In this document: positions 22,705 through 42,879 of the stretch, piece by piece
Layout: the number at the start of each line of letters is the position of its first letter
Position numbering within the stretch: the stretch's first letter is position 1
From: a virus
Virus record (IMG/VR): IMGVR_UViG_3300044699_000148
Span: 1 to 42,879 of that record
Reading direction: 5' to 3' (one strand)
Length of the DNA stretch: 42,879 nucleotides
The notes under the pieces: model-generated
Told to the model about the DNA's origin: nothing
Databases searched by the model: none
The model's input: only the letters and a program-made list of their open reading frames with translations
Made by a program: the position numbers and the translations under genes

Positions 22705-23990
22705 TCAGCGGCCGAGAACCTTGTTGATCTTCGCGCCGAAGGCTCTTGCCGGACTTGAACAGGTCCGTCTCGGTCTTCGCGCTGGGGGCAGGGCGTGCTC
22801 TCGCCGCCCGCTGGTTCGAGGCGGCGGGGGCCTGCGGGGCTGCGGGAGCTGCCGGCGAGGCCTTGGCCACGACGTAGGCTTCCAGCTTCGCCACGTCCTC
22901 GGACTTGCTCATGTCGAGCGAAGCCAGGAACAGCTTCTCCTTGTGCGCCTGGATGGCCTTCAGGTCGAGAGGGTCGCCCTCGAAACTTGACCTCGGTCTT
23001 CGCGACCGGGGCGGCAGGGGTGGCGGGGGCGGCAGGGGCCTTCGGGGCCACGGCCTTGGTGATCGCTTCGAGGAGCTGCGCGTCGCGAGCATCCAAGAGC
23101 GCCTTGAGTTCGGCTTCGGTCATCGTTTCCAAGATGGAGGTGGATTTGGCGATCGGCTCGACCTCCGCGAGACCGAACAACGAGAGCCCAGCGATGCGGC
23201 CGTCTTTGACGGCCTTCCGCAGTCCGGGATCAGAGATTTTGATGAGCATGCCCCAGGCGTCAGTGGCGTCCACGGGCGTGCCGTAGTTGTCCACCCAGCC
23301 CTGGAAGCGTGGGTCGCCCTTCTGCACGATGAACGTCTCGGCGACGCTGGCCTGATCGGCCTTCAGGACCACGAGATCGTGCTCGATGTCGAGGTGCGCC
23401 CCGTTCGCGACGAAGTCGTGGCCATCTGCTTCACGACCGTGCGCGGCGCGACGTCGCCCTCGGTGTCGACTGCCCCGTTCTCCTCAGGGCACGTAGACGA
23501 GGCCCATCAACAGGCCCTCTTCCTCGGCGACCTTGAACAGCATCGAGAACTCGACGCGGCCACCCGACTTCATCAGCACGGGGCACTTGTTGCTCCGCGC
23601 GAGACCAGGGAGACGTGGGTCACCTTGGCATACTTGATGCGTCGCTTGGCCTTCTCCGGGGGCATCCGGGACGGCCTTCGCGAGTGTGCTCTTGGCCGCC
23701 TCGTCGAGGGTCGACGGATCACGGACCGTGTGCGTGTGCCCGTCGGCCGCGCCGATCGTCACCACGCCCGCTGCGTCCTGGACCCAGGGGTGGGAATGAC
23801 CATCGCCGTCCGCGTCCAGCGCGTAGGTCGACTCCCCGCCCGGGCCGTCCGCGAGGTCGATCAGGTGGGTATGCCCCTCCACGTTCGACAGCAGGACCGG
23901 CTTCTCCAGCGGATACTTCTTCGCGACCCGCGGAGCAGGCGTAGCAGCGGCCACGGACTTGCGGAGAAGGCTCTGGATGAAGCGGATCAT
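22705..23990 (-). CDS. XkdF-like prohead protease/scaffold, frameshifted
   Basis: Starts MIRFIQSLLRKSVAAATPAP at 23990. Residues 38-90 hold three H-x-H motifs (EGHTHL, DGHSHPW, DGHTHTV). After an indel near 23650 come RRIKYAKVTHVSLVSRGANK and VEFSMLFKVAEEEGLLMGLV. After another near 23480 the XkdF protease region follows: ENGAVDTEGDV, LKADQASVAETFIVQKGD, QGWVDNYGTPVDATDAWGML and GRIAGLSLFGLAEVEPI. The tail (TEAELKALLDARDAQLLEAI, Ala/Pro linker) looks like an internal scaffold. After an indel near 22735 it ends FGAKINKVLGR at the TGA 22707-22705. The family processes the prohead, and protease plus scaffold in one chain is common. Confidence 0.75.
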
Positions 23991-24002
23991 GCGACTGCCA
24001 GA

Positions 24003-24031
24003 ATGATACTTTGTCCCAAAAGGAGACGCAA
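24003..24031 (-). promoter_or_regulatory. Candidate minus-strand promoter of the head-tail operon
   Basis: TTGCGT (24031-24026) and TATCAT (24008-24003) are separated by 17 nt on the minus strand. The start codon of the protease gene lies 12 nt beyond the -10 box, so the leader would be about 5 nt. It shares the 72-nt divergent gap with the portal promoter. Confidence 0.45.
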
Positions 24032-24039
24032 GTGAGTCC

Positions 24040-24075
24040 GGCATACTTTCTGCATGTGGTATGCTTTCAACATGT
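24040..24075 (+). promoter_or_regulatory. Tandem 18-bp repeat with -10 box at the portal start
   Basis: Two adjacent 18-bp copies, GGCATACTTTCTGCATGT (24040-24057) and GGTATGCTTTCAACATGT (24058-24075), match at 14 of 18 positions. The second copy places an extended -10 (TGG-TATGCT, hexamer 24060-24065) 6 nt before the portal ATG at 24072. The first copy places CATACT 6 nt before an in-frame ATG at 24054. Either the two copies are alternative leaderless starts or they bind a regulator. No ribosome-binding site is visible. Confidence 0.45.
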
Positions 24076-25510
24076 CCGACACTCCCCCGGAAGCCACGAA
24101 AATCATCCTCCCCAAGACCATCGGCCCGGACGGCCCAACCGCCGATCAGAAGGCACAGATCGCGACCTTCCGTCACGTCGTTCGAAAGCTGGTCCCGGAG
24201 ATGGAAGGGAACCTCTCGCTGATGGATTCGCTTCTGACGGGCCTCAAGAAGGGGGTCGTGGAATCGGAGCCGACCAACGCGCCGACCTACGCCGGCATGA
24301 AGGGGATCCCCTTCAACTACGACGCCGCGATGCGCCTGAAGCTGCACAACGTCCACCACTCGACGTGCGTGGACACCAAGAAGCAGTCGCTGGTCGGGCT
24401 GGGCCACACGGAGGGCTCGCGGGCCGACGAAGTTCTGGACCCGATCTGCACCCTGACCTGGGCGGTGCTCCGCTCGAAACTTGCGGATGACTTCGCGAAC
24501 CTGGAGATTTGCTACATCGAAGTTGTGCGCGACGGCGACAAGATCGTCGGGCTCCACCACATCCCGGCCGTAGACGTCCGCTATGTGGTTGAGCAAGACC
24601 TCGTGAATCACTACTACGAGATCCGCGGCGGGAAGGTGGAGTCTCTGGCGTCCGCGACAAACTCGACGGTGATGGCCCCGTTCGGGCAGCTCAAAGAGTT
24701 CCTGACGCGGCACGGTTCGCTGGTCGCGGGCCGCAAGATCAGCGAGGTCATCGCGATCATGAACCCAACCGCGCAGTCGCGCTACTACGCCGTGCCCTCG
24801 TGGCTCGCGGCCGTCGCCGACATGGAGCTGAACCAGGCCGTGCGCCAGCACGTCTACGACTTCCACGTCAACCGAGGCGTGCCGGAGTTCTTGCTGTTCC
24901 TCACGGGCGGGCGCGTGGACACGAAGACGTGGGCCGCGATCGTCGAGGCCATGCAGGCATACGTCGGCGTCGGCAACAGCCACAAGTCGTCGGCGTTCAA
25001 CGTCGTCGGCGAGGACATCGAGGTCAACCTCAGCAGCTTGAATCGAACGATGTCATCAAAGGCGACTTCTACCGCATGATGACCGAGGCCCTGGCGACCA
25101 CGATCGTGTCGGCCCACCGCGTGCCGCCGATCCTCGCCGGCATCCTGATCCCCGGGAAGATGGGCGCAGCCAACGAGCTGCCGAACTCCATCATGGCGTT
25201 CCAGACGCTGGTTATCGGCCCGATGCAGACCATCTGGCAGAGCATCCTCGGCGCGACGCTCGGCGGAAAGTTCAACGGGGGCCTCGGCCTCAAGCCGAAG
25301 GATTTCGAGTTCAAGTCCATCGTGGATGCGATGGCTGACGGGCTCCAGAAGCTGAACCCGCAGAAGGGCGCGGCCGACACCCTGGGCGGGATGCGGTCGA
25401 CCCTGCCCGAGGCGGCTGCCGAAGGCCGGAACCTGAACGACGGCGTGAAGAAGTCGCGGGCGGCCCGGCTGACGGCACTGCTCGGTGAAATCCTCGCGGA
25501 AGATCAGTGA
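24072..25510 (+). CDS. Portal protein, frameshifted once
   Basis: The start MSDTPPEATKIILPKTIGPD at 24072 is preferred over the in-frame ATG at 24054. Reasons are the -10 box spacing and the absence of any ribosome-binding site for either. The body has portal features: LKLHNVHHSTCVDTKKQSLV, LEICYIEVVRDGDKIVGLHH, IPAVDVRYVV, AVPSWLAAVADMELNQAVRQ, VYDFHVNRGVPEFLLFLTGG. After an indel near 25,045 it continues DFYRMMTEALATTIVSAHRV, PPILAGILIPGKMGAANELP and TLVIGPMQTIWQSILGA. That is the LTP..IAG.......S...E....F....I.P pattern of phage portals. The product is about 479 residues. It forms the dodecameric DNA channel. It lies on the opposite strand from terminase and capsid. Confidence 0.85.
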
Positions 25511-28214: not shown

Positions 28215-28228
28215 GGGAACAGCATATC

Positions 28229-29032: not shown

Positions 29033-29209
29033 TCAGATCCCCAGCAAGATCATCAGGTAGGAGAGGAGATTCTCAACGTCCGCACCCAGCCCGACGAGCA
29101 TGTCGGGAATGGTGGCCGGAGCGATAGCCGCTGCCGTGTTCGGAAGCACGCTCGCGCAGCCCCCGCAGAGGAGGAGCGCCAGGACCGCGAGGCTCTTACG
29201 ATTTCGCAT
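29033..29209 (-). CDS. Small lipoprotein, spanin candidate
   Basis: 58 residues from ATG at 29209. The N-terminus MRNRKSLAVLALLLCGGCAS is a lipoprotein-type signal with a Cys at 15 or 18. A Pro/Ala linker follows, then a hydrophobic C-terminal helix (LLSYLMILLGI). Its start lies 14 nt inside the end of the upstream lipoprotein gene. An overlapping pair of envelope proteins beside an XhlA-like protein resembles spanin pairs. Here both look lipidated, which is not the classic Rz/Rz1 arrangement. Confidence 0.5.
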   Translation of the reverse strand: MRNRKSLAVLALLLCGGCASVLPNTAAAIAPATIPDMLVGLGADVENLLSYLMILLGI

Positions 29210-29557
29210 CGAGCTGCGCCTGCACCTTCGCGAGTTGCAGCTCCAGGTCTTTGCGGTTCTCGGCCGACTCGGCGTGCTTCTCGTCGAGGGCCTTCGCCTT
29301 GCGGCGTCCGGCCTCAGCCGCGAGCCAGCGATGATGAGACTCAGGTAGTTCATCTTCTCGACGGCCGAGAGCTTGCCGTCCCCGTCCAGGTCGGCCTTCG
29401 CGCGTGCCTCGGCCTGGATCCTCTTCAGGGTCTCCAGCTCCGCGTCCACGTCCTGGAGGGCCTGGGAGACGGCGTCGAGCTTCTTGTTCTGTTCGAGTCC
29501 TTGCAGGTAGCCGCAGGACGGGAGGACCAACAGTAGAGACAGTAGGAATGCTCGCAT
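29196..29557 (-). CDS. Lipoprotein with canonical EF-hand and coiled coil, frameshifted
   Basis: ATG at 29557 gives MRAFLLSLLLVLPSCGYLQG, a lipoprotein signal with Cys15. Residues 26-52 are a coiled coil. Residues 56-67 (DLDGDGKLSAVE) form a complete EF-hand calcium loop with D, D, D, S and E at the ligand positions. After an indel near 29330 the helix continues EAGRRKAKALDEKHAESAEN, LELQLAKVQAQLDAKS and stops at TAA 29198-29196. The corrected length is about 120 residues. A periplasmic coiled coil anchored by lipid fits a spanin, and calcium binding would be unusual. A TAAACT box lies 6 nt before the ATG. Confidence 0.55.
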
Positions 29558-29561
29558 GTGG

Positions 29562-29777
29562 TTAGTTTACAACGGAGTTGCCCCAAGAAACACCCCCGCC
29601 GCCCGACTTTCGCTTCGGGGTGAACACCTGGACGATGTCGTCGCCCTGGGACGGGCGGGTGGACCGCACCTGGATCAGGGGCTTCTTGGGTTCCTGGGGA
29701 GCGCGCGGCGTGTCCAGTTTTTCTGACGTGGAACTGGACATCCTGGAGTGGAACACCTGCCCCTCCCCCTGGGTCAT
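29562..29777 (-). CDS. Small polar protein downstream of large terminase
   Basis: 71 residues from ATG at 29777, which overlaps the large-terminase TGA (ATGA). The sequence is polar and Pro/Ser-rich (MTQGEGQVFHSRMSSSTSEK, RAPQEPKKPLIQVRS, GDDIVQVFTPKRKSGGGG), probably disordered. I do not recognise it. Coupled translation to terminase is the main reason to call it real. Confidence 0.5.
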   Translation of the reverse strand: MTQGEGQVFHSRMSSSTSEKLDTPRAPQEPKKPLIQVRSTRPSQGDDIVQVFTPKRKSGGGGVSWGNSVVN

Positions 29778-31078
29778 GATCGCCGGGAAGCCCGGCAGGC
29801 GAGCGCCAGGGAGCAGACAAAATCATCATGCTGACCACTAGGGGCGCTCGCCTTTTTCCCGTCCTCGGACCACCCATACTGTAAGAGTTGGTCCCGAAGA
29901 GAAGGACAGAGCAGCCCAGTTGGTAGCCGGATCTTTTTCTGTTCCAACAAGCCCCGGAGGTTGACGATCATCTTCATCTTGGAGGTGGGGGTGAACACCA
30001 CGCTGCGAACATAGATGCCCATGTTCCGCGCCTGTTGGATGATGGGCTCGCCGATTCCCGTTCCGTCTGTGATGACGTCCTGAATTCCGTATCGCTGCTG
30101 ATCTCGAAGGATTAGATCGAGCTGGGCATCGACCGGCATCTTGTGCATCCTCCGCACGAACACGACCTTCGCGGCCGGCGAGGAGTTCGCGAAGCCTAGC
30201 GGTGCCCGCACGATGATGTGAACCGAGGAGTCTCGCTTGAGCCCGAGATCAAGCCCGGAGTAATATTCGCCAGCCGGGTTGGGCTCCTCCCACTCCTCGA
30301 TCACGCAGCACTGATCGATGATCTCCGGTTCAAACACGCAGCCCTCGGCCGACACTGGTTGCCCACCAAGTTCCTGGAGAAAGTCCTTCGTAGCCATCGT
30401 CTGGAACTCCTTCTGGATCTTCGGATCCTGAAAACCCCCGGGAAACATCACCGAGTTGGTCCACGTAGGGAGGTTGATCGCGATGGCTCGCCCTCCGGGA
30501 TTCTTCTTGGCTGTCCGGTGGAGCTGGACGAACCAGCCGGACTGCCCGCGGGGCGTGGAGATCGCCAGGAGCTTGCCCTGACGGTCGATCAGTCGCGTGC
30601 GTAGCTGAGACTCCCACACAGAATCGTGGATCTCGGGGTCGCTGGCCTCGTCTATGACCATTAGATCAACCGCATAGGCGGCGAGGCGGGCCTTGCCCTT
30701 CGCGCCCTGGGTCGTGCGACGCATGATGCGGGTGCGTCCCCCTCCGAAGTTCTTCATCTCGATCACGCCATCATTTCGATCGAGACGAAAGTTCTTGCCA
30801 TGCACCTTGGCCACGAGCGTCGTCACCATGTCGAAGATAGCATCGGCCACCTTCGTGCTCGGCGCAACGCACCAGATCATGGTGTCTGGCCGTGGCTGCA
30901 TTGCGGCCCAGATCACTTCATGGGCTGCCGCTAGGGTCTTCCCGAATCTTGAACCTGTCATTGCGATGACTTGGTCGATTCCGGGCGTATCCATCGCCGC
31001 GTGAATCTGGGCCTGTCCCTCGTGAGCAAAATAGCCCAGGGATTCAAAGAACTTCCTCTTGTCCAGAACCTTGCTCAC
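29774..31078 (-). CDS. terL: Terminase large subunit
   Basis: GTG at 31078 is preferred to the TTG two codons earlier: GGAG is spaced 6 nt before it and it overlaps the upstream stop (GTGA). The 434-residue product has Walker A GSRFGKT at about 42-48, MIWCVAPSTKVADAIFDMV, adenine-binding region and Walker B LMVIDEAS, motif III STPRGQSGW, and an RNase H-like nuclease domain starting YYSGLDLGLKRD. That domain continues IQDVITDGTGIGEPI and GQHDDFVCSLALAC, with Asp residues as metal ligands. It packages DNA into the head through the portal. Confidence 0.92.
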   Translation of the reverse strand: MSKVLDKRKFFESLGYFAHEGQAQIHAAMDTPGIDQVIAMTGSRFGKTLAAAHEVIWAAMQPRPDTMIWCVAPSTKVADAIFDMVTTLVAKVHGKNFRLDRNDGVIEMKNFGGGRTRIMRRTTQGAKGKARLAAYAVDLMVIDEASDPEIHDSVWESQLRTRLIDRQGKLLAISTPRGQSGWFVQLHRTAKKNPGGRAIAINLPTWTNSVMFPGGFQDPKIQKEFQTMATKDFLQELGGQPVSAEGCVFEPEIIDQCCVIEEWEEPNPAGEYYSGLDLGLKRDSSVHIIVRAPLGFANSSPAAKVVFVRRMHKMPVDAQLDLILRDQQRYGIQDVITDGTGIGEPIIQQARNMGIYVRSVVFTPTSKMKMIVNLRGLLEQKKIRLPTGLLCPSLRDQLLQYGWSEDGKKASAPSGQHDDFVCSLALACRASRRS

Positions 31079-31581
31079 AGCCAACTCCGTCGCTCTGCGA
31101 CTTCTTGCTCGGTAGGTTGTCGATTGCTCTTGCTAGCATTCGTCGATCGGTCGACGATCCGTAGGTTGGCGTATACGTCAAGCCCGCGAGGGTCATCTGT
31201 CTTCCTCGGCTTCAGCGGGAAGATGTGGTCGATGGCTACATCATCGCCTTGAAGACGAAGCCAGTCGGCGATCTCGTGAAGGGCCAGCACACGTAGGTCG
31301 TTTCTAGCCCAAGGCGGGCAGGCGTGGAGTTTGATAGTTCGACGGCGCTGGGTCTGTTCGGCCGCGTGCGCTGGGTTACGGCGGGCTAGGATCTCCTCTT
31401 TATTGGCGAGGTAGTGGGCGGCCTGCTGAGCCCTGATTGTCTCTCGTTTAGCAAGGTAGTCGGCGGCCTGCTGAGCCCTGATCGTCTCTCGATTGGCGAG
31501 ATAGTGGGCAGCCTTCTGGGTGCGAATCGCATCCTTGTTGACCTGCCGGTAGACAGCGTCCTCTTCCTTGGTCCTTACCAT
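31075..31581 (-). CDS. HNH endonuclease with tandem KRETIRAQQAAxYLA repeats
   Basis: Intact 168-residue frame. Residues about 15-70 hold four imperfect 16-residue repeats (K.AIRTQKAAHYLANRE, TIRAQQAADYLAKRE, TIRAQQAAHYLANKE, then EILARRNPAHA), forming a long basic helix probably used for DNA binding. The C-terminus carries DVAIDHIFPLKPRK and GLDVYANLRIVDRSTNASK, the HNH pattern with a spacer different from the other HNH gene. It immediately precedes terL. HNH proteins beside terminase are required for cos packaging in some phages, but free-standing homing nucleases of this repeat type are also common. Confidence 0.75.
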   Translation of the reverse strand: MVRTKEEDAVYRQVNKDAIRTQKAAHYLANRETIRAQQAADYLAKRETIRAQQAAHYLANKEEILARRNPAHAAEQTQRRRTIKLHACPPWARNDLRVLALHEIADWLRLQGDDVAIDHIFPLKPRKTDDPRGLDVYANLRIVDRSTNASKSNRQPTEQEVAERRSWL

Positions 31582-31583
31582 CT

Positions 31584-31880
31584 TTACCGCTCTACCACGG
31601 TGATCGCCGGCGGTTCTCCGCTGTAGGGCAGACCTAGGGGCGCGTCATCGTCATCGAAGACAGCGTATTCGAGGACTTCCTCGTCGCTGAAAATCTCGGT
31701 GTCGGTGGCCATCATCAACTCGTAGGACAGGATCTCCAACCGCTCGCGGACCTTCTGGAGATTCGACGTCGAGCGAAGGCCCTTGCAGATGCGGTCGATC
31801 TCGTAGACGGCGTTGACGGTGAGTTGGTGGCGGGCACGATCTGCTTTGGAGATGATGTTCATGATGTGGAAGAGAACCAC
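31584..31880 (-). CDS. Uncharacterised protein between small terminase and HNH genes
   Basis: 98 residues from a GTG at 31880 with GAGGGACC 7 nt before it. An internal ATG at 31862 is the alternative. Helical sequence (LTVNAVYEIDRICKGLRSTS, VRERLEILSYELMMATD) ends in an acidic tail (EIFSDEEVLEYAVFDDDDAP). The family is not recognised. The strongly acidic end could interact with the nuclease or terminase. Confidence 0.55.
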   Translation of the reverse strand: MVLFHIMNIISKADRARHQLTVNAVYEIDRICKGLRSTSNLQKVRERLEILSYELMMATDTEIFSDEEVLEYAVFDDDDAPLGLPYSGEPPAITVVER

Positions 31881-31889
31881 AAGGGTCCC

Positions 31890-32483
31890 TCATGTGTCGG
31901 AAGAATCCAAATTGGTCTCATCCTGGGATTCGTCGTCGCTCAACATCCCCGGCATGCTAGGAAGGTCCGGCGGGGCCGCGATCTTTGTCCGATCCAGGAT
32001 GAAGGGTTTCGCCTCATCTCCCCCTTCCGTGGAGACCTCACCCAGCAGCTTCTGCATCCGACCGATGATGTCCCCCTCCTGACCCTGGCCCATGCCGAGA
32101 GCATCGCGGCGGGCCTTCCGGCACGACTCGTTGATCTTGAAGAGGGTCGCGGGGCTGCACCTGTCCTGCTCGATGGCCTCGGCCAGCTTCCGGTCGGTCA
32201 GCTCGATGAAGGCCGACAGGGCGGTCACGTCGCGGGTGTTGAGGCCGGCCACGTCGCCGACGAGTTCCTTCTGGGTCTGCTTCGCGGCATCCTTGGCGAT
32301 GGCGGCGATGCGCTGCATCCAGCCCCCGGCGACCATGGCGCGACACGCGGCCTGGATCGACACGCCGGCCTTCTGGGCCAGCCACGATGGATTCCTACCT
32401 TCGCCCTGGGCGACGTAGCTGTGAAAATGCTCCTCCACGCGGGCAAACTCTGGGTTCTCGAAGTAACTATCTGGCGGGACCAT
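31890..32483 (-). CDS. Terminase small subunit candidate
   Basis: 197 residues from ATG at 32483. An N-terminal helix-turn-helix is visible (NPSWLAQKAGVSIQAACRAM, about residues 34-55). It is followed by helices used for oligomerisation (LNTRDVTALSAFIELTDRKL, LFKINESCRKARRDALGM) and an acidic, flexible C-terminus (SDDESQDETNLDSSDT). Architecture and position two genes upstream of terL match small terminase subunits that recognise packaging sites. Other helix-turn-helix phage proteins are possible. The start is 9 nt from the palindromic -10 box. Confidence 0.55.
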   Translation of the reverse strand: MVPPDSYFENPEFARVEEHFHSYVAQGEGRNPSWLAQKAGVSIQAACRAMVAGGWMQRIAAIAKDAAKQTQKELVGDVAGLNTRDVTALSAFIELTDRKLAEAIEQDRCSPATLFKINESCRKARRDALGMGQGQEGDIIGRMQKLLGEVSTEGGDEAKPFILDRTKIAAPPDLPSMPGMLSDDESQDETNLDSSDT

Positions 32484-32492
32484 GGTGTGGGA

Positions 32493-32500
32493 AGTATACT
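32493..32500. promoter_or_regulatory. Palindromic AGTATACT acting as a bidirectional -10 box
   Basis: The palindrome lies in the 25-nt gap between divergent start codons. On the plus strand TATACT is 8 nt before the ATG at 32509. On the minus strand TATACT is 9 nt before the ATG at 32483. Neither gene has a ribosome-binding site, so both messages would be leaderless or nearly so. Because the -10 boxes coincide, the two promoters should compete. Confidence 0.5.
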
Positions 32501-32508
32501 CCATTACC

Positions 32509-32874
32509 ATGAGAGTTCGCGTCAACCGGGATCATAACCGGCACAGATGGACCGTCCAGCACGAGGACGGCCGCCGCATCGGGCACTGCATCGGGCTCCT
32601 CCTGGAGGACGTCGTCTTCGAGACCCAGGGGCCGTCCGGATGGGCGATCGGCACCCTGGTTTCGTGGGGCGACATGGCCGTCGACCCGAAGTTCGCGGAG
32701 CGCCTCGAAGCCAGAATTGTCAACTACGTGCAGGCCAGTGGCTACAATTTCCACCCGGTGGGGTTCAAGGGTGGGGAGTTCTTCGTCTACGGCGCGAAGA
32801 TCACGTCGGCGACGTGGCTCCGGGTCCTGGGCCGGGAAGCGGAGTGTGCGGGCGCTCGGTCGTCGGCACCGTGA
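32509..32874 (+). CDS. Uncharacterised protein divergent from the packaging operon
   Basis: 121 residues from ATG at 32509 (MRVRVNRDHNRHRWTVQHED). An in-frame ATG at 32482 would bring MVWEVYSIT but overlaps the minus-strand start. The sequence is mixed alpha/beta (GHCIGLLLEDVVFETQGPSG, VNYVQASGYNFHPVGFKGGE, FVYGAKITSATWLRVLG). No family is recognised. It is the only plus-strand gene between 26.6 and 35.9 kb. Its last 74 nt overlap the convergent gene; an indel may have lengthened one of them. Confidence 0.55.
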   Translation: MRVRVNRDHNRHRWTVQHEDGRRIGHCIGLLLEDVVFETQGPSGWAIGTLVSWGDMAVDPKFAERLEARIVNYVQASGYNFHPVGFKGGEFFVYGAKITSATWLRVLGREAECAGARSSAP

Positions 32875-35522: not shown

Positions 35523-35543
35523 AGCATACACCATGTGTGGTGT
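35523..35543 (-). promoter_or_regulatory. TATGCT box and 6-bp inverted repeat upstream of the small-gene operon
   Basis: The inverted repeat ACACCA-TGTG-TGGTGT (35528-35543) touches a minus-strand TATGCT (35528-35523) that is 5 nt before the ATG at 35517. A palindrome overlapping a -10 box is a typical repressor site. With so short a distance the transcript would be leaderless. Confidence 0.4.
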
Positions 35544-35930
35544 GAGGGAGTAGATTTTCGATTTTTCTTGGCGAAGGAACCGGGGGAGGTTCTGGTCGCC
35601 GAACCCCCACGTAGCCGTCTCACTTCGAGATTCTCGGCCTCGAATGCCTGGCACTTGGCACGTGGTGCGCATGCGCCCATGTTATGGGATGTATGCAAAC
35701 CCCCATGCTATGGTCCACAACAATCGGTTTCTGCGACACCTCTATAGATCCTACATCTTCTCTTATGGTATACCCTATTACTCCCATACTAAGGCTATAT
35801 CCCCCTATCCTGTATCCTTCTCCTCTCTAAACTGGTGAATAGTTTTGTTGTATTGTTGTTTCTTCGATACCATGGAGGATTGCGGTATGCCAAGCTCCAA
35901 CAAAACGCAGTGTAAAGAACGGCATCAAAA
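35544..35930. other. Non-coding, partly AT-rich region with several palindromes (phage edge)
   Basis: No convincing gene. From 35,544 to 35,720 it holds the palindrome GCGCATGCGC (35667-35676), the inverted repeat CCCAT-GTT-ATGGG (35676-35688) and a second CCCATGYTATGG copy at 35702 (26 bp away). From 35,730 to 35,920 the sequence becomes AT- and pyrimidine-rich, unlike anything else in the window. A 7-bp inverted repeat GCATCAA-AA-TTGATGC (35922-35937) sits at the change to high-GC bacterial DNA. It could be a phage regulatory or origin region, a genome end, or an assembly junction. Confidence 0.5.
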
Positions 35931-35933
35931 TTG

Positions 35934-36127
35934 ATGCGCGCTGAGGCCGACCGCTCGGCGACGCTGCTCGTCCGCGAGGGGATCGTGCCGGACGAGTTCA
36001 TTCGCGCTCGCGCGCACGCAGTCGCGCCACCGCGACGAGCAGGAGGAGCGCTTCGCCAATGCTCAAGCTCGACATGGTCGAGCACGTCATGTCGCTTGCC
36101 GGCGAGGAGGTCTACGACGTCGAGTGA
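35934..36127 (+). CDS. Small bacterial-type protein or gene fragment, frameshifted
   Basis: ATG at 35934 gives MRAEADRSATLLVREGIVPD, then FIRARAHAVA. A neighbouring frame supplies HRDEQEERFAN and a last frame LKLDMVEHVMSLAGEEVYDV before TGA at 36125-36127. Codon use is strongly GC-biased, like the genes to the right. It may be a short gene or the 3' part of one cut at the junction. No family recognised. Confidence 0.3.
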
Positions 36128-36213
36128 CGCCTCGAACATCCGTTGCCGGGTGCAACTCCCCGGCCGGTTGCTCGTTCCAAGGTCATGGCCGCCCTCCCGC
36201 TCCCCACGCTCGC

Positions 36214-37766
36214 ATGCCGGTCGCGACGCTCGTGCTCGCCGTGGCGCTGCTCGCCAGCGGCGGCGCCGTGCGCCGGCGCGGAGGTGATCGCCTCGTCCTC
36301 GGCAGCGGCTTCGAGGGCGGGCCGGCGCTCGCGAGCGACGGGCGGCTGGTCGTCGGGGAGCTGCGCGGCAACGGCGCGCTCATCGTCCTCGCGATCGACC
36401 CGCGGACTGGCACGGCCACCGGGCTCGCCGCCTCTCCCCCGCTCGGCGATCCGCTGACCTACAACGTCCTCGACGTCATCGAGGACGGGCCGGCGTCGTG
36501 ACGTCGTCGCTGCGGCGCTTCCGCGAGGCGGACCGGCCCGCAGTCCGGTCCCGAGCAGGACGTCCCGGTGCCGAAGGGCAGCCGCGTCTCGACGCTCTTG
36601 CCCTTCGCTGCCCGTTGTCGGCGTGCGCGCGCCGTCAGGCGTTCTCCGACCACGACGCGGCGGGCGGCGACGGCTTCGTCGCGAGCATCGGCGGCGAGTG
36701 CGGCCCGACGAGCACCGCCGTGTGACGATCCGCCACGCGAGCGAGGCACGCTTGACGATCCCGGTCGCGCCGGAGACGTCGCCGTTCGCCGGCGAGCCGC
36801 CCACGCCGAACATCAAGCTGCTGCGCGCCGCCGGGCCGATGGTGTCCTGGGTCGAGGAGCACCACGACCCGCGCGGGGGGCGTCCTGCGCACGGTCGTGG
36901 TCGCGCGCGGGGCCACGGGCCAGGTGCTCCTGCGCGCCGTGCTCCCCGCGTGTCCCCGGCGCAGATCGGGCTGGGACCGCGACGGACCCGTCGCGTTCAC
37001 GGGCTGGTCTGCTCGCTCGGCACCGTGTCGCCCGCGGCGCCGATGGTGCGCGACGTTGCGGCTGCCGCCCAACCTCTGCCCGTTCTCGCGTAGCTCGCGG
37101 TCGCTGGCCGTCGCCAGCGGGCGGATCGTGTTCGGCGCTTCGACGGGCTACGCGATCGCCGACTTGCAGGGCGCGGCGCCGTCCGCTCGCGGAGGCGCGG
37201 CCGCGCGCGGGCAACGTCGGCTCGCCGGTCGCCTTCGACGGTCGCACGGTGTGTTCGTCGTCGATCCTCGACTGCTTCGCCGACCCACCTGCGCGCCATC
37301 GACGCGGACCTCGCGGCCGCGCCGCTGCCGACCGCGCGGCAGCTGCCGAAGGTCCCGTGCCCGCTGCGCCGCTCGGGCTCCGGCCGCGTCCTGCGGCCGC
37401 AAGCGACGGCCGCGTGCGGATCGCACTGCGCTGCGAGCACGGCTGTCGCGGGACGCTGCGGCTCGTCCAGCAGCGCGCGGGCCGGCGCGAGCGGCTCGTC
37501 GGCGAGGCCGCGTATCGCGCACGCGCCGGGGCCGGTCTCGGTGCGCGTCAGGCTCGCCCCGTACGCGCGGCGGCTCGCCGGCTGCCCCGGCGGCTTGCGC
37601 GCGAACGCGATCGTGTTTGCGTCGCGCACACGCGGGAAACCTCGGGTCGCGCGGGCTCGGCGCCTACCGGATTCGTGTCGGGCTCGCCGTGCCGGCGCAC
37701 GGGCGGGCCGCCGTTCGCGAAGGCGCGCCGCGGTCCGCGGCCGTAGCTGCCGCGCTCCGACGATGA
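36214..37766 (+). CDS. Secreted beta-rich actinobacterial protein, heavily frameshifted
   Basis: ATG at 36214 starts MPVATLVLAVALLASGGA, a signal peptide. Then come DRLVLGSGFEGGPALASDGR, LVVGELRGNGALIVLAIDP and, over at least eight indels, DHDAAGGDGFVASIGGECGP, TIPVAPETSPFAGEPPTPN, LAVASGRIVFGASTGYAIAD and NVGSPVAFDGRTV. These (LASDGRLVVG, VAFDGRTVF) suggest propeller-type repeats. The end, VRIALRCEHGCRGTLRLVQQ, VRLAPYARRLAGCPGGLRAN and YRIRVGLAVPAHGRAAVREG, is the Ig-like tail common in Thermoleophilia secreted proteins. About 517 residues when corrected. Function is unknown. Confidence 0.45.
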
Positions 37767-37834
37767 GTTTCGCCGCGCGGCGCGGTCTTCAGTTTCGTGC
37801 ACAATCTGCGGACGACCTCAGGAGGCAGCTGGAC

Positions 37835-38917
37835 ATGACCGAGCTTCTCGTCTCGACGCGCAAGGGCCTGTTCGTGCTCGAAGGCGAGCCAGGCGCAGGA
37901 TTCGAGGTGGCGGCGCGCGCCGTTCGCCGGCGAGCCCGTCGAGTACGCGATGCGCGATCCGCGCTCGGGCCGCCTGCTCGCGTCGGTGACGTCCGCGTTC
38001 CACGGGCCGAAGATCTTCTTCACCGACGACCCGGCGGCGAGTGGAGCAGACGATGGCCTCGCGCTGCCCAAGGGCGGCGACGAGGCGCTCGCGCGAGATC
38101 TGGCTGCTGAAGGCCGCGCAGGACGACGAGACGGTCTACGCGGGCGGCGACCCCGGCGTCCTGTTCGAAAGCCATGACGGCGGCGCGAGCTGGGAGCTCA
38201 ACCGCGGGCTGTGGGAGCAGCCGACGCGCGGCTCGTGGCAGGCGGGCGGCGGCGGGCTGTGCCTGCACTCGATCGCGCCGTGGCCGGGCGACCCCGATCG
38301 CCTCGCGATCGCGATCTCGGCCGCCGGCGTGTGGCTGTCCGACGACCGCGGCGAGACGTGGCGGCGCGGCAACAAGGGCATCGTCCCGGGCTACATGCCC
38401 GAGGAGGTGCGCGAGGAGTACCGACGACCTGTGCGTCCACCACCTCGAGCGCGCGCCGCTGCGACCCGAGCGGCTGTTCATGCAGTTCCACGGCGGCGTC
38501 TACCGCTCCGACGACGTCGGGCGAGTCGTTGGATCGACATCGCCGCACGGCCTCTGCCAGGCGACTTCGCCTTCCCCCTCGCCGTCGACCCCGCCGACCC
38601 CGACTAGCGCGTTACGTGATTCCGATGAACGCCGACACCGACCGCGTCACCGCGGGCGGCTCCGCGTCGTAGGTCTGGGAGACCGCGCGTCGCCGGCGCG
38701 AGCTGGACGGCGCGCGGTGCCGGGCCTTCCGGACCGCGACGCGTACCTGACGGTGCTGCGCCTCGCCTTCACCACCCGCTCGGCAGGGCGACTCGCTCGA
38801 GCTGTACTTCGGCGCGGACGTCGGGCGACGTCTACGGATCCGGCGACGCCGGCGCGAGCTGGGTCGCCGTCCGCCGACCACCTGCCGCCCGTGAACTCGC
38901 TCACCGCCTCGGCCTGA
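37835..38917 (+). CDS. Sialidase/BNR-propeller family protein, frameshifted
   Basis: ATG at 37835 has AGGAGG about 9 nt upstream. MTELLVSTRKGLFVLEGEPG opens a propeller of the exo-alpha-sialidase or WD40/YVTN/BNR family. Across indels it gives VTSAFHGPKIFFTDDPA, LFESHDGGASWELNRGLWEQ, GLCLHSIAPWPGDPDRLAIA, VWLSDDRGETWRRGNKGIVP, LFMQFHGGVYRSDDVG and FAFPLAVDPADPDSAYV. The S.DGG.SW and SDD.GETW strings are BNR Asp-box repeats. No signal peptide, so cytoplasmic. True sialidase activity is not shown; many members have none. About 360 residues. At least eight indels. Confidence 0.65.
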
Positions 38918-38990
38918 CCGCGCATCCGCCGCGGCGTCGAGCCCGCCGGAGCTGAGCCCCCGGCCCGGTTACCGGCGGCGGGGCGAGGCG

Positions 38991-41900
38991 TCAGGGGTGA
39001 CGGTGCGCCTCGCGGTCCAAGCGCGCGCCGGCCGTCGGGGTGAACGTCGCGGTCACCCGGGTGCGCAAGGCGCCCGGTGCGGCCGCAGCAGCCGCAGCCC
39101 CGAGTGCGGTCGGCTTGAGCGTCACGCGCAGGAAGGCCGGGGCCGCGGCGACGAGGCGGTGGACAGCGCGCGACGACGCCGAGACTGGTCGCGCGGCGGC
39201 CAACGACGCTCACGTTCCCGCGCCGCGGCAACCGCACGCTCACCTTGGCGCGACCGGTCAGCGAGCTGGGCACGATCGACGTGATCGCAAAGCGGATGGA
39301 CCGGGCGGGGCGGGCGGGTGGCGGTGGTGGCGCGGGGGTCAGCGGCGGCGGTGCGTTGGCGATCGTGGCCGTTGAACTGCGACGGCGAGCACAGGTTCGT
39401 AAACGGGCCGGAGCTGTGCAGGAAGACCTGGAAGCTCTCGGGACCCTCGGCAGTGCCGTCGCGCGCCAGCGGTACCCCGATCGTCGGCGAGCCCGCGCCG
39501 CTGCCGATCGTCAGCGTCCCCGTGGCGGTGAGTGTAGTCGATGCCGCAAGCGCCGTCAGCGGGCTCTCGTCGTATAGCCGACCGACCCCCGCCGCATTTG
39601 CTCGTTGCGCGTCCACCACCGATGACCGCGACGCCGTCCGGCCTCGCTGAAGGACCCGCTCCCGGCCGCGAAGCTCACCGCGCTCGCGACGATCGACGGA
39701 CTCGACGCTCGCGTGCGTCACCGGCCGGCGGTCAGGCCGCCGTCATGCGAGCCAGCCGCCGTCGTTTACGGCGAGGCAGCCGGGTTCGAAGCGCAGCTTG
39801 TCGGCTCCCGGCCCGCCCTTGTGCGTGGTGGTCACGGTCGTCGACGGGACGAGGCCACAGGACATCATCGCCGTTGCCGCCATGAAACACGAGCTCGCCG
39901 AGCGTGTCGACGTCCGGCAGGCCCGTCGAGGTCATGACGTTCCGGACCGTCGTTGCCGGCCACCGCCGAGCTTCTCGGTCGTGCCGACGTCCAGGCTGCG
40001 CGAACGCCCCGGTGCCCGAGCGCGCGACGCGCAGCCGCGAAGCGCTCTCGGTCGCGCTGAAGCTGTCCGCCCACGGCCCCCCCGCATACCGTTGACCTGC
40101 AGCCGATCGACGCCCGCATCGCCATCCAGCGTGTCGTTGCCGTCACCGTTGTTTCCACGCGATATAGAGGTCGTCCCCGGCGCCGCCGCTCACGATGTCG
40201 GCCCCGCCGGCGGGCGCGCGATCGTGGTCCGCCCCGCCCTCGCCGCGCAGCGTGTCCGCACCGCTCGAGCCGACGAGGCTGTCGCCCGCGGCAGCGCCGC
40301 CGTTCACACTCCGTAATTGCCGACGATCGCGCCGAAGCCCGTGGCGCTGCCCGGCGCGGCGACCGCGGCAGCGCTCGGAAGCAGCTGCCCGCGCAGCGCG
40401 CCGTCAGGGAACGTCGTGCTGTGCACGTTGACGTAGACCCGCCCCGCCGAGCAGCGCCGCCGTCTGCTGCGCCGGCAGCACGACGTTCGTCAGGCTGGGC
40501 CGTGAAGCCGGTGCCCGAGCGGCAAGGGGCCCACCAGCGCCGCGAGGTCGACGACGACCGGCCCGTTGGCTCCGATCGCTGCGCTTTGTGGAGGTGAAAG
40601 CCCGAGATCGTCGAGGTATTCGAGGTTGGCGACGTCGAGCTCGATGTCGAACGTCCCCGTCGCAGCTGTCGTACGCGAGCGCAGCCGTTCGGTCGCGGGC
40701 GACCGTGGTCGGCGGCACCTCTTGGTCTGAGCCCAGCGTCGCCGTTCCGCGTCGTCACGGTCGAGAGCCGAGGTTCGCCCGCACGGGGCTCGGTATACGC
40801 GGAGTAGTCGATCTCGCCGCCTTCGTGGCTGCGGTCGAGGCGTGCCGCTGAGCCCGGCGGCCGACCGCGACCGGACGACGGGGGCCGCTGAACAACGTCG
40901 AGAGATTCTCGGTCGTGTCGAAGCTCATCAGCATGCCGCCGGTGGCAGAGCCCATGTTCTGGCCGGGCCCGATTTGCCACGAGCCCGCGCCGTAGACCTT
41001 GTCGGAGCCTGGTCCGCCGCGCATCTGGCCGGCGGTGCCGAGCAGAGTCAGGAACTGGAAGGTGTCCGCGCCGTCGAAGCCATGCAGCTCGATCTTCTTG
41101 GCTGCGTCGCCGGGCATGGCGACGTAACAGGCCGTCGTCGCCGCCACGCCCGACGACCGAGACCTCTTCGGTGCCGCCGAGGGTCGAGCGACGAGAACGT
41201 GCTGGGGGCGATGCGGTCGAGGTCGATCCGCGTCGCATGCACCCGGAGTGAGAAGTTGTCGCCGACCGGGCCGTCTGAGCCGTTTGGCCTGGACGCGATC
41301 GTGTGCCGGCGTCGCCGTCGATGACGTCGGTTGTCCGTCGCCGTCGCTCCAGGTGATGAGTGTTCGTCGGCGCCAGCCCGCCGGCGACCGTGTCGTTGCC
41401 TGGCGCACCGGCACGATCGTGTCCGCGCCGTGTCCGCCGCCGAGGATGTCGTTGGCGAGGTTGCTGGCGACGATGCTGTCGCCAGCCGACCCGCCCGTCA
41501 CGTTCTCGACGTCGGTGACTCATAGCCGGTAGCGGTGCTGGTGCCGAGCGTATCGACGAACGCGCCCCCGGCAACAGCTGCCCGCGGATCGCGCCGCTCG
41601 GAAACGCCGGCCGTGTGGACGTTGAGATACGCGCCGCCACCGAGCAGCGCGGCCTCGAAGACGGCTGGCAGTGTGACGCCGGTGCGGCTGAAGGTGAAGC
41701 CGCCGCTGGCGTTCGGCGTCTAGCGTGCCGGGCAGGAAGTCCAAGCGCACCGGCCCGTTGACGGCCGACTGGCGCGGTGTGGATGTGAAAGCCCGTCACG
41801 TCGATCGCCAGCGCGAGATTCGAGACGCTGAGGTTTCGATGTCGAAGGTTCTGCGTCGCCGGTGTCATAGACGACCGTCCCCAAACCGCTGGCCGCGCTG

Positions 41901-42840
41901 GACGTGGCGGGTGACTCCTGATCGGCGGTCAGCGTGCCGCCAGCCCGGCGCTCGCGCCTGAGGTCGACGCTCACCGGCGTCGTGTAGGCGGCCCGTAGGA
42001 CAGCCGATCGCTGCCACCGGCACCAGGCGAACGGCCCGTCGTTGAGCCGTCTCACCATCGCCAGCGACAGCACGTTTCGCGCCGCTGCCACCGTTTGACA
42101 GCGATCGCCACCCCGACCCGAGTCATCGGCGACCGACACGCTCTCGGTCGGCGTCGTTGCCGAGGTTGATCGTCAGGCTGCGGGTCGGATGGACGTGAGA
42201 CGCCGTCGTCTCAAAACGTGCCCGCCGCGCTGCGCAGCTGCGACCATCGCGGCTTGGTTGGCGGTGTCCGTTTCATCAAGCACCGTCAGGTTGTCGCCAT
42301 CGCCCTGCGGGACGTCGAAGACGAGATCCGCGACGGTCCCGCCGAGCGTCACGGGTTCGAAGGTCGCGAAAAGCGATCCGTGTCCCGTCGAGCACGATCG
42401 TGCCGTCATGGCCATGACCCGGGACGATCGCGCGTGAACGTGACACCGTCCGCGGGCAAAGCGCCCGCCGACGACCTCAAGACCGTCACACCCGCGCCAC
42501 CCTGCTGCGCGCCGGCCGTCGAAGGACGACGCCGTCGGGCGCGGGGGTTGCCGGCGCTGGAGTCGATGCGCCAGCGTGTCGTTACCCGGCGATCCCGCGA
42601 GTCTCGATCCGCCCATCCGCACCGACAGCGGGGCTCCGTGTCGCACGCCCGCGCCTCGTTAGCCGCCGCACCGCACCCCCGGGATCGGCCGCAGCGTCAG
42701 GACGCGGTCAGACCCCGGCGACGACGACGTTACCTCCCGTCGGGCCTGCTCACGCTCGACGCCGAAGCGCCCGCGACCTGCCGCCAACGCGCCCAGCAGC
42801 ACGGCGACGGAGAGGACGGACTGGCCCGGTTCTTGGCCAT
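38991..42840 (-). CDS. Very large secreted CHRD / calcium-binding-repeat / Calx-beta protein, heavily frameshifted
   Basis: Read from 42840, MAKNRASP leads into VLSVAVLLGALAAG, a signal peptide. Successive frames then give FEPVTLGGTVADLVFDVPQG and LTINLGNDAD. A first CHRD domain follows (LALAIDVTGFHIHTAPVG, VRLDFLPGTLDA), then calcium-binding repeats (DSIVASNLANDILGGGHGAD, NDTVAGG, DVIDGDAGT). A second CHRD domain near 40,600 has ISGFHLHKAQRSE. Further repeats and a Calx-beta-like strand set follow near 39,450 (LTATGTLTIGSGAGSPTIGV, GTAEGPESFQVFLHS). It ends in an Ig-like tail, VHRLVAAAPAFLRVTLKPTA to TATFTPTAGARLDREAHRHP. Corrected length is near 1,280 residues. Probably a calcium-dependent cell-surface or matrix protein. 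The break count is too high to exclude two genes. Confidence 0.5.
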
Positions 42841-42879
42841 GCGGCGACAAGCTATTGCTTTGTGCGTAATGTTACAAAT

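Follow-up and report, generated by a model that had tools for sequence, protein, structure and literature searches.

Can the 25 nucleotides between two divergent start codons hold the promoters of both genes, and how would the transcripts be translated when neither start is preceded by a ribosome-binding site? The question is raised by a junction in the 42,879-base virus record IMGVR_UViG_3300044699_000148 (positions 1 to 42,879, hereafter the window), where the terminase operon and a 121-aa gene are read away from each other. We propose that this gap, at 32484–32508, is probably a bidirectional promoter serving both, and that both mRNAs are predicted to be leaderless or nearly so.

Results

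Genomic setting and the relative used for comparison

The window carries siphovirus head, tail and packaging genes, most of them on the minus strand, and the GC content of its phage part is about 58–67%. The junction was compared between the window and one relative, the IMG/VR contig IMGVR_UViG_3300017605_000995 (57,637 bases, 57.6 kb; G001, also listed as L005), which a scan using three aligned major capsid protein sequences as query recovered; its two ends abut in the gene order of the window. Scanning viral contigs with single proteins (TerS, the plus-strand gene product, TerL) gave no match, nor did a nucleotide search against phages with the window; GTDB genome scans found neither a host nor a prophage, and in the more distant TerL relatives L015–L018 no homologue of TerS or of the plus-strand gene was detectable.

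Some properties of the record itself should be noted. Over 35900–42879 the GC content rises from about 60% to 71–75%, the coding signal is poor and similarity to G001 is missing; the corresponding interval of G001 is occupied by different genes over about 22 kb. A chimeric contig or a replaced segment could account for this. The portal gene (24072–25510) is divided into two frames (335 and 144 aa) as against a single 479-aa frame in L002, and, compared with G001, a number of tail genes are broken up too, which suggests frameshifts or sequencing errors in the window record.

The divergent genes and their start codons

The genes concerned are the following:

32509–32874, plus strand: divergent partner gene of 121 aa with no assigned function; 68% identical homologue in G001
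31890–32483, minus strand: probable small terminase subunit (TerS) of 197 aa, at the head of the packaging operon; homologue directly before TerL in G001
29774–31084, minus strand: large terminase subunit (TerL); phrog_2, E=2.6e-26; 63% identity to G001

Homology and the codon-position pattern indicate that both divergent genes are real. Their homologues are divergent in the relative too, with 55–56% identity on the terminase side; differences between the plus-strand gene and its homologue fall mostly at the third codon position (39/25/64 for positions 1 to 3), and its coding model score is 26. The 121-aa protein had no match in Pfam, PHROG or phage tblastn, and its structure model is weak (pLDDT 52). 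The minus-strand gene is likely the small terminase subunit, judging by the position of its homologue before TerL and by an all-helical model of low confidence (pLDDT 55); family-model searches gave no confident family match, and a PDB fold search with the model returned nothing below E=1. In the window, TerS and TerL are separated by two small ORFs (31075–31880) that G001 lacks; one of them gives a weak HNH endonuclease signal and may be a homing-type endonuclease that was inserted here. At the other end of the plus-strand gene, its 3' end overlaps that of the convergent minus-strand upstream gene by 74 nt (32801–32874), and a similar overlap is found in G001.

From the window alone, other in-frame starts could be considered at 32482 (plus strand) and at 32504, 32510 and 32525 (minus strand), all of which the comparison with G001 excludes. 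There, an in-frame TAG stands immediately upstream of each aligned ATG and precludes any earlier start, and the similarity between the window and G001 proteins begins at ATG 32509 and ATG 32483. A first, sequence-only reading of this DNA had stated that a start further upstream in either gene would overturn it; these stop codons and alignments rule such a start out. Its claim that neither gene has a ribosome-binding site agrees with the Shine-Dalgarno duplex energies at the two starts, −0.1 and +0.7 kcal/mol, within a window whose background median is −2.5 kcal/mol and whose genuine Shine-Dalgarno genes reach about −6 to −10 kcal/mol. Other genes of the window carry clear Shine-Dalgarno sequences, and both modes of initiation thus appear to be in use.

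Overlapping −10-like boxes in the gap

Within and around the gap we recognize the following elements:

32493–32500, both strands: palindrome AGTATACT, comprising two overlapping −10-like hexamers; 1 copy in 42,879 bases against 0.01 expected in shuffles
32495–32500, plus strand: TATACT, −10-like box for the 121-aa gene, 8 nt before ATG 32509; G001 ortholog TAGCAT-N6-ATG
32493–32498, minus strand: TATACT, −10-like box for the terminase operon, 9 nt before ATG 32483; G001 ortholog TAGAAT-N6-ATG
32481–32486: CATGGT, left arm of an outer inverted repeat, including the minus-strand start codon
32506–32511: ACCATG, right arm of the same repeat, including the plus-strand start codon

The palindrome with its two TATACT readings, the spacings of 8 and 9 nt and the 25-nt gap had all been described in the sequence-only reading, and they are exact. 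The two hexamers overlap by 4 bp. Their first T lies 14 and 15 bp before the start codons, which is off-peak for leaderless TANNNT boxes, the standard being N6, with the first T about 12 bp upstream of the start (PMC3160421), and a spacing of 8–9 nt is somewhat long if initiation is to be strictly leaderless. The A located 3 nt before each ATG is a plausible +1, which would give leaders of 0–3 nt. The window boxes are not extended −10s, and no −35 element at normal spacing is present on either strand of the window junction; TTGACG at 32525–32520, considered as a −35 for TerS, is ruled out by its 21-nt spacer.

At the orthologous junction of G001 the gap between the start codons is 14 nt and reads, in window orientation, CAT GGTAGCATTCTACC ATG. 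The letters of AGTATACT are not conserved there, but the layout is: two TAGNAT boxes, each exactly 6 nt before its ATG (first T 12 and 12 bp upstream), overlap by 2 bp. Both are extended −10s, with TGG before the hexamer, and the T of this triplet is supplied by the start codon of the opposite gene. What is shared with the window palindrome is the arrangement of overlapping −10s on two strands and not the sequence. Overlapping −10 elements on both strands, the mark of a bidirectional promoter, are found in both genomes, together with what characterizes TA-led leaderless genes, namely a TANNNT about 12 bp upstream by its first T and no Shine-Dalgarno sequence.

Probable leaderless starts elsewhere in the phage group

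Similar boxes precede other genes of the window:

24060–24065, plus strand: TATGCT, 6 nt before portal ATG 24072; L002 TATGAT-N6-ATG, G001 CATACT-N6-ATG
28221–28226, minus strand: TATGCT, 6 nt before phosphoesterase ATG 28214; L002 TAGACT-N6-ATG, G001 TACACT-N6-ATG
29564–29569, minus strand: TAAACT, 6 nt before ATG 29557; G001 counterpart (53845) TAGACT-N7-ATG
35523–35528, minus strand: TATGCT, 5 nt before ATG 35517 of a 63-aa ORF; candidate site, read from the window sequence

The outer bases of TANNNT are mostly kept across relatives while the inner bases vary, and an earlier portal ATG at 24054 is missing in L002. With three further genes carrying conserved boxes and no Shine-Dalgarno sequence, leaderless initiation is probably a habit of this phage group. 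TATRCT is followed by an ATG 5–9 nt later in five of its eight occurrences in the window (P=2e-5, for a motif chosen post hoc); the unselected genome-wide enrichment of TANNNT at a gap of 6 is weak (P=0.06 in the window, P=0.006 in G001).

Two observations belong beside this list. The gene at 29033–29557 encodes a lipoprotein-like N-terminus (MRAFLLSLLLVLPSCGYLQ); it has its own TANNNT-N6-ATG, and in G001 too a TANNNT box precedes the ATG of its counterpart. Between the portal gene and its neighbour there is a second divergent junction, which in G001 (L010 1389–1419) measures 29 nt and contains AGTATGATACACT, with −10-like boxes on both strands; in the window (23990–24072) it is 81 nt wide and the boxes are separate.

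An inverted repeat over the start codons

The combination CATGGT-N0..30-ACCATG has a single occurrence in each of the two genomes, at this junction in either case. As RNA, the repeat is predicted to fold over the AUG (window, z about −1.7; G001, z about −5.3), and such a hairpin could block translation of read-through RNA by burying the start codon. The repeat may equally be a by-product of the start codons and −10 boxes, since the G001 dyad is largely forced by the two start codons and the two symmetric extended −10s. We regard the following proposal as possible, if doubtful: the 20-bp G001 palindrome CATGGTAGAATGCTACCATG, in which each start codon provides the T of the opposite promoter's TG, would be a minimal dual start unit packing two start codons and two extended −10s (TGG-TAGNAT), and its hairpin would restrict translation to promoter-initiated mRNAs, tying terminase synthesis to the junction promoter.

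Alternative readings of the junction

In the sequence-only reading, the packaging operon and its divergent partner shared one polymerase site. The divergent pairing, the overlapping −10s and the (near-)leaderless starts are backed by the comparison with G001, but the terminase mRNA could also arise by read-through or from an internal promoter. The palindrome would then drive the 121-aa gene alone, and the terminase operon would be transcribed as a leadered mRNA, either by transcription running on from the minus-strand genes upstream, no intervening terminator having been found, or from a minus-strand site that a consensus scan detects inside the plus-strand gene, 40 nt upstream:

32531–32558, minus strand: TGGACG-16-TATGAT, sigma70-like promoter facing the terminase operon

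TATGAT occurs only once in the window. This site, however, falls within codons whose Asp-His-Asn is conserved and reads TATGGT in G001, the resulting leader would have no Shine-Dalgarno sequence and its AUG would lie within the hairpin, and G001 retains TAGAAT-N6-ATG before the terminase gene. We consider this explanation unlikely, and less likely than a shared bidirectional promoter, against which there stand nonetheless the internal site, the reliance on one relative at the junction, the weak unselected enrichment of TANNNT and, in the window, the spacing of 8–9 nt instead of 6 and the lack of extended −10s and of a normally spaced −35.

That a short A+T-rich gap formed the palindrome by chance, one strand or both being without function, would accord with the lack of sequence conservation and with the window taken alone, in which shuffling the gap bases yields the two-strand TANNNT geometry with P=0.018 (1.8%) given the composition. 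The same shuffling of the orthologous 14-nt gap, where an independent and better-spaced version is found, gives P=0.0007 (0.07%). A genome-wide search for CAT-N10..34-ATG with TANNNT 5–9 nt before both starts returned one match per genome, each at this orthologous junction, as against 0.1 and 0.18 expected in Markov-simulated whole genomes. A chance origin is in our view decidedly unlikely.

Very improbable is the last alternative, that the dyad CATGGT...ACCATG, with the AGTATACT that it encloses, is primarily an operator for a dimeric protein such as TerS or a phage regulator, its −10-like letters being incidental or secondary: the outer repeat is unique and its position is conserved in both genomes, and TerS proteins often bind DNA close to their own gene, but the inner sequence is not conserved, the forced bases account for most of the G001 dyad, and no regulator was found, the structure models being too weak for a DNA-binding fold to be recognized.

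Discussion

We thus favour a bidirectional promoter in the gap, and from the sequence we infer the following course of events. A sigma70-type −10 on each strand, with a 4-bp overlap, would allow polymerase to bind in either orientation but never in both; leftward transcription would yield the terminase operon mRNA and rightward transcription that of the 121-aa gene. Both mRNAs would begin at or within about 3 nt of the AUG and would be translated as leaderless mRNAs, without a Shine-Dalgarno sequence.

The mutual exclusion that the sequence-only reading had envisaged needs to be divided in two. Because the boxes overlap by 4 bp in the window and by 2 bp in G001, two polymerases are not expected to occupy the junction together, and steric exclusion on the DNA follows. 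Regulatory exclusion does not, as illustrated by five tested E. coli bidirectional promoters, which show no competition at basal activity, this being too low, and compete only when one direction is strongly activated (PMC12825309).

In the bidirectional promoters of E. coli and Salmonella (Warman/Grainger; PMC12825309, PMC10268837), a −10 element that is inherently symmetric serves both strands. The phage junction resembles them in having one −10 region readable on both strands, with one polymerase at a time, and divergent start sites predicted to lie 15–26 bp apart; the favoured separations in E. coli and Salmonella are 10, 18 and 23 bp (PMC12825309, PMC10268837), and those predicted here are about 21 bp in the window and 15 bp in G001. 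It differs in belonging to a phage, and in that both products are protein-coding and apparently leaderless. With the TA-led leaderless genes (PMC3160421) it shares a TANNNT 12–15 bp before the ATG, no Shine-Dalgarno sequence and a high-GC genome, whereas here two starts share overlapping boxes on opposite strands. In the divergent restriction-modification promoters of EcoRV and CfrBI (PMC5333194) the core promoters likewise overlap, so that polymerase cannot bind both; EcoRV, however, has a C-protein regulator and a C transcript that is not leaderless, while at the phage junction no regulator homology or operator was found (with low-confidence models).

The kind of promoter is therefore known; what appears new is its compactness, the predicted leaderless use on both sides and a layout conserved without its sequence. 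Among the papers searched for leaderless genes together with divergent or bidirectional promoters, none describes a phage example; this points to novelty without proving it. If our reading is true, leaderless mRNAs on both sides allow a divergent promoter for two genes to shrink to a 14-nt interval between the start codons, and bidirectional promoters would extend to phage packaging genes. The junction would also constitute a natural and very small test system for the choice of polymerase orientation and for leaderless translation.
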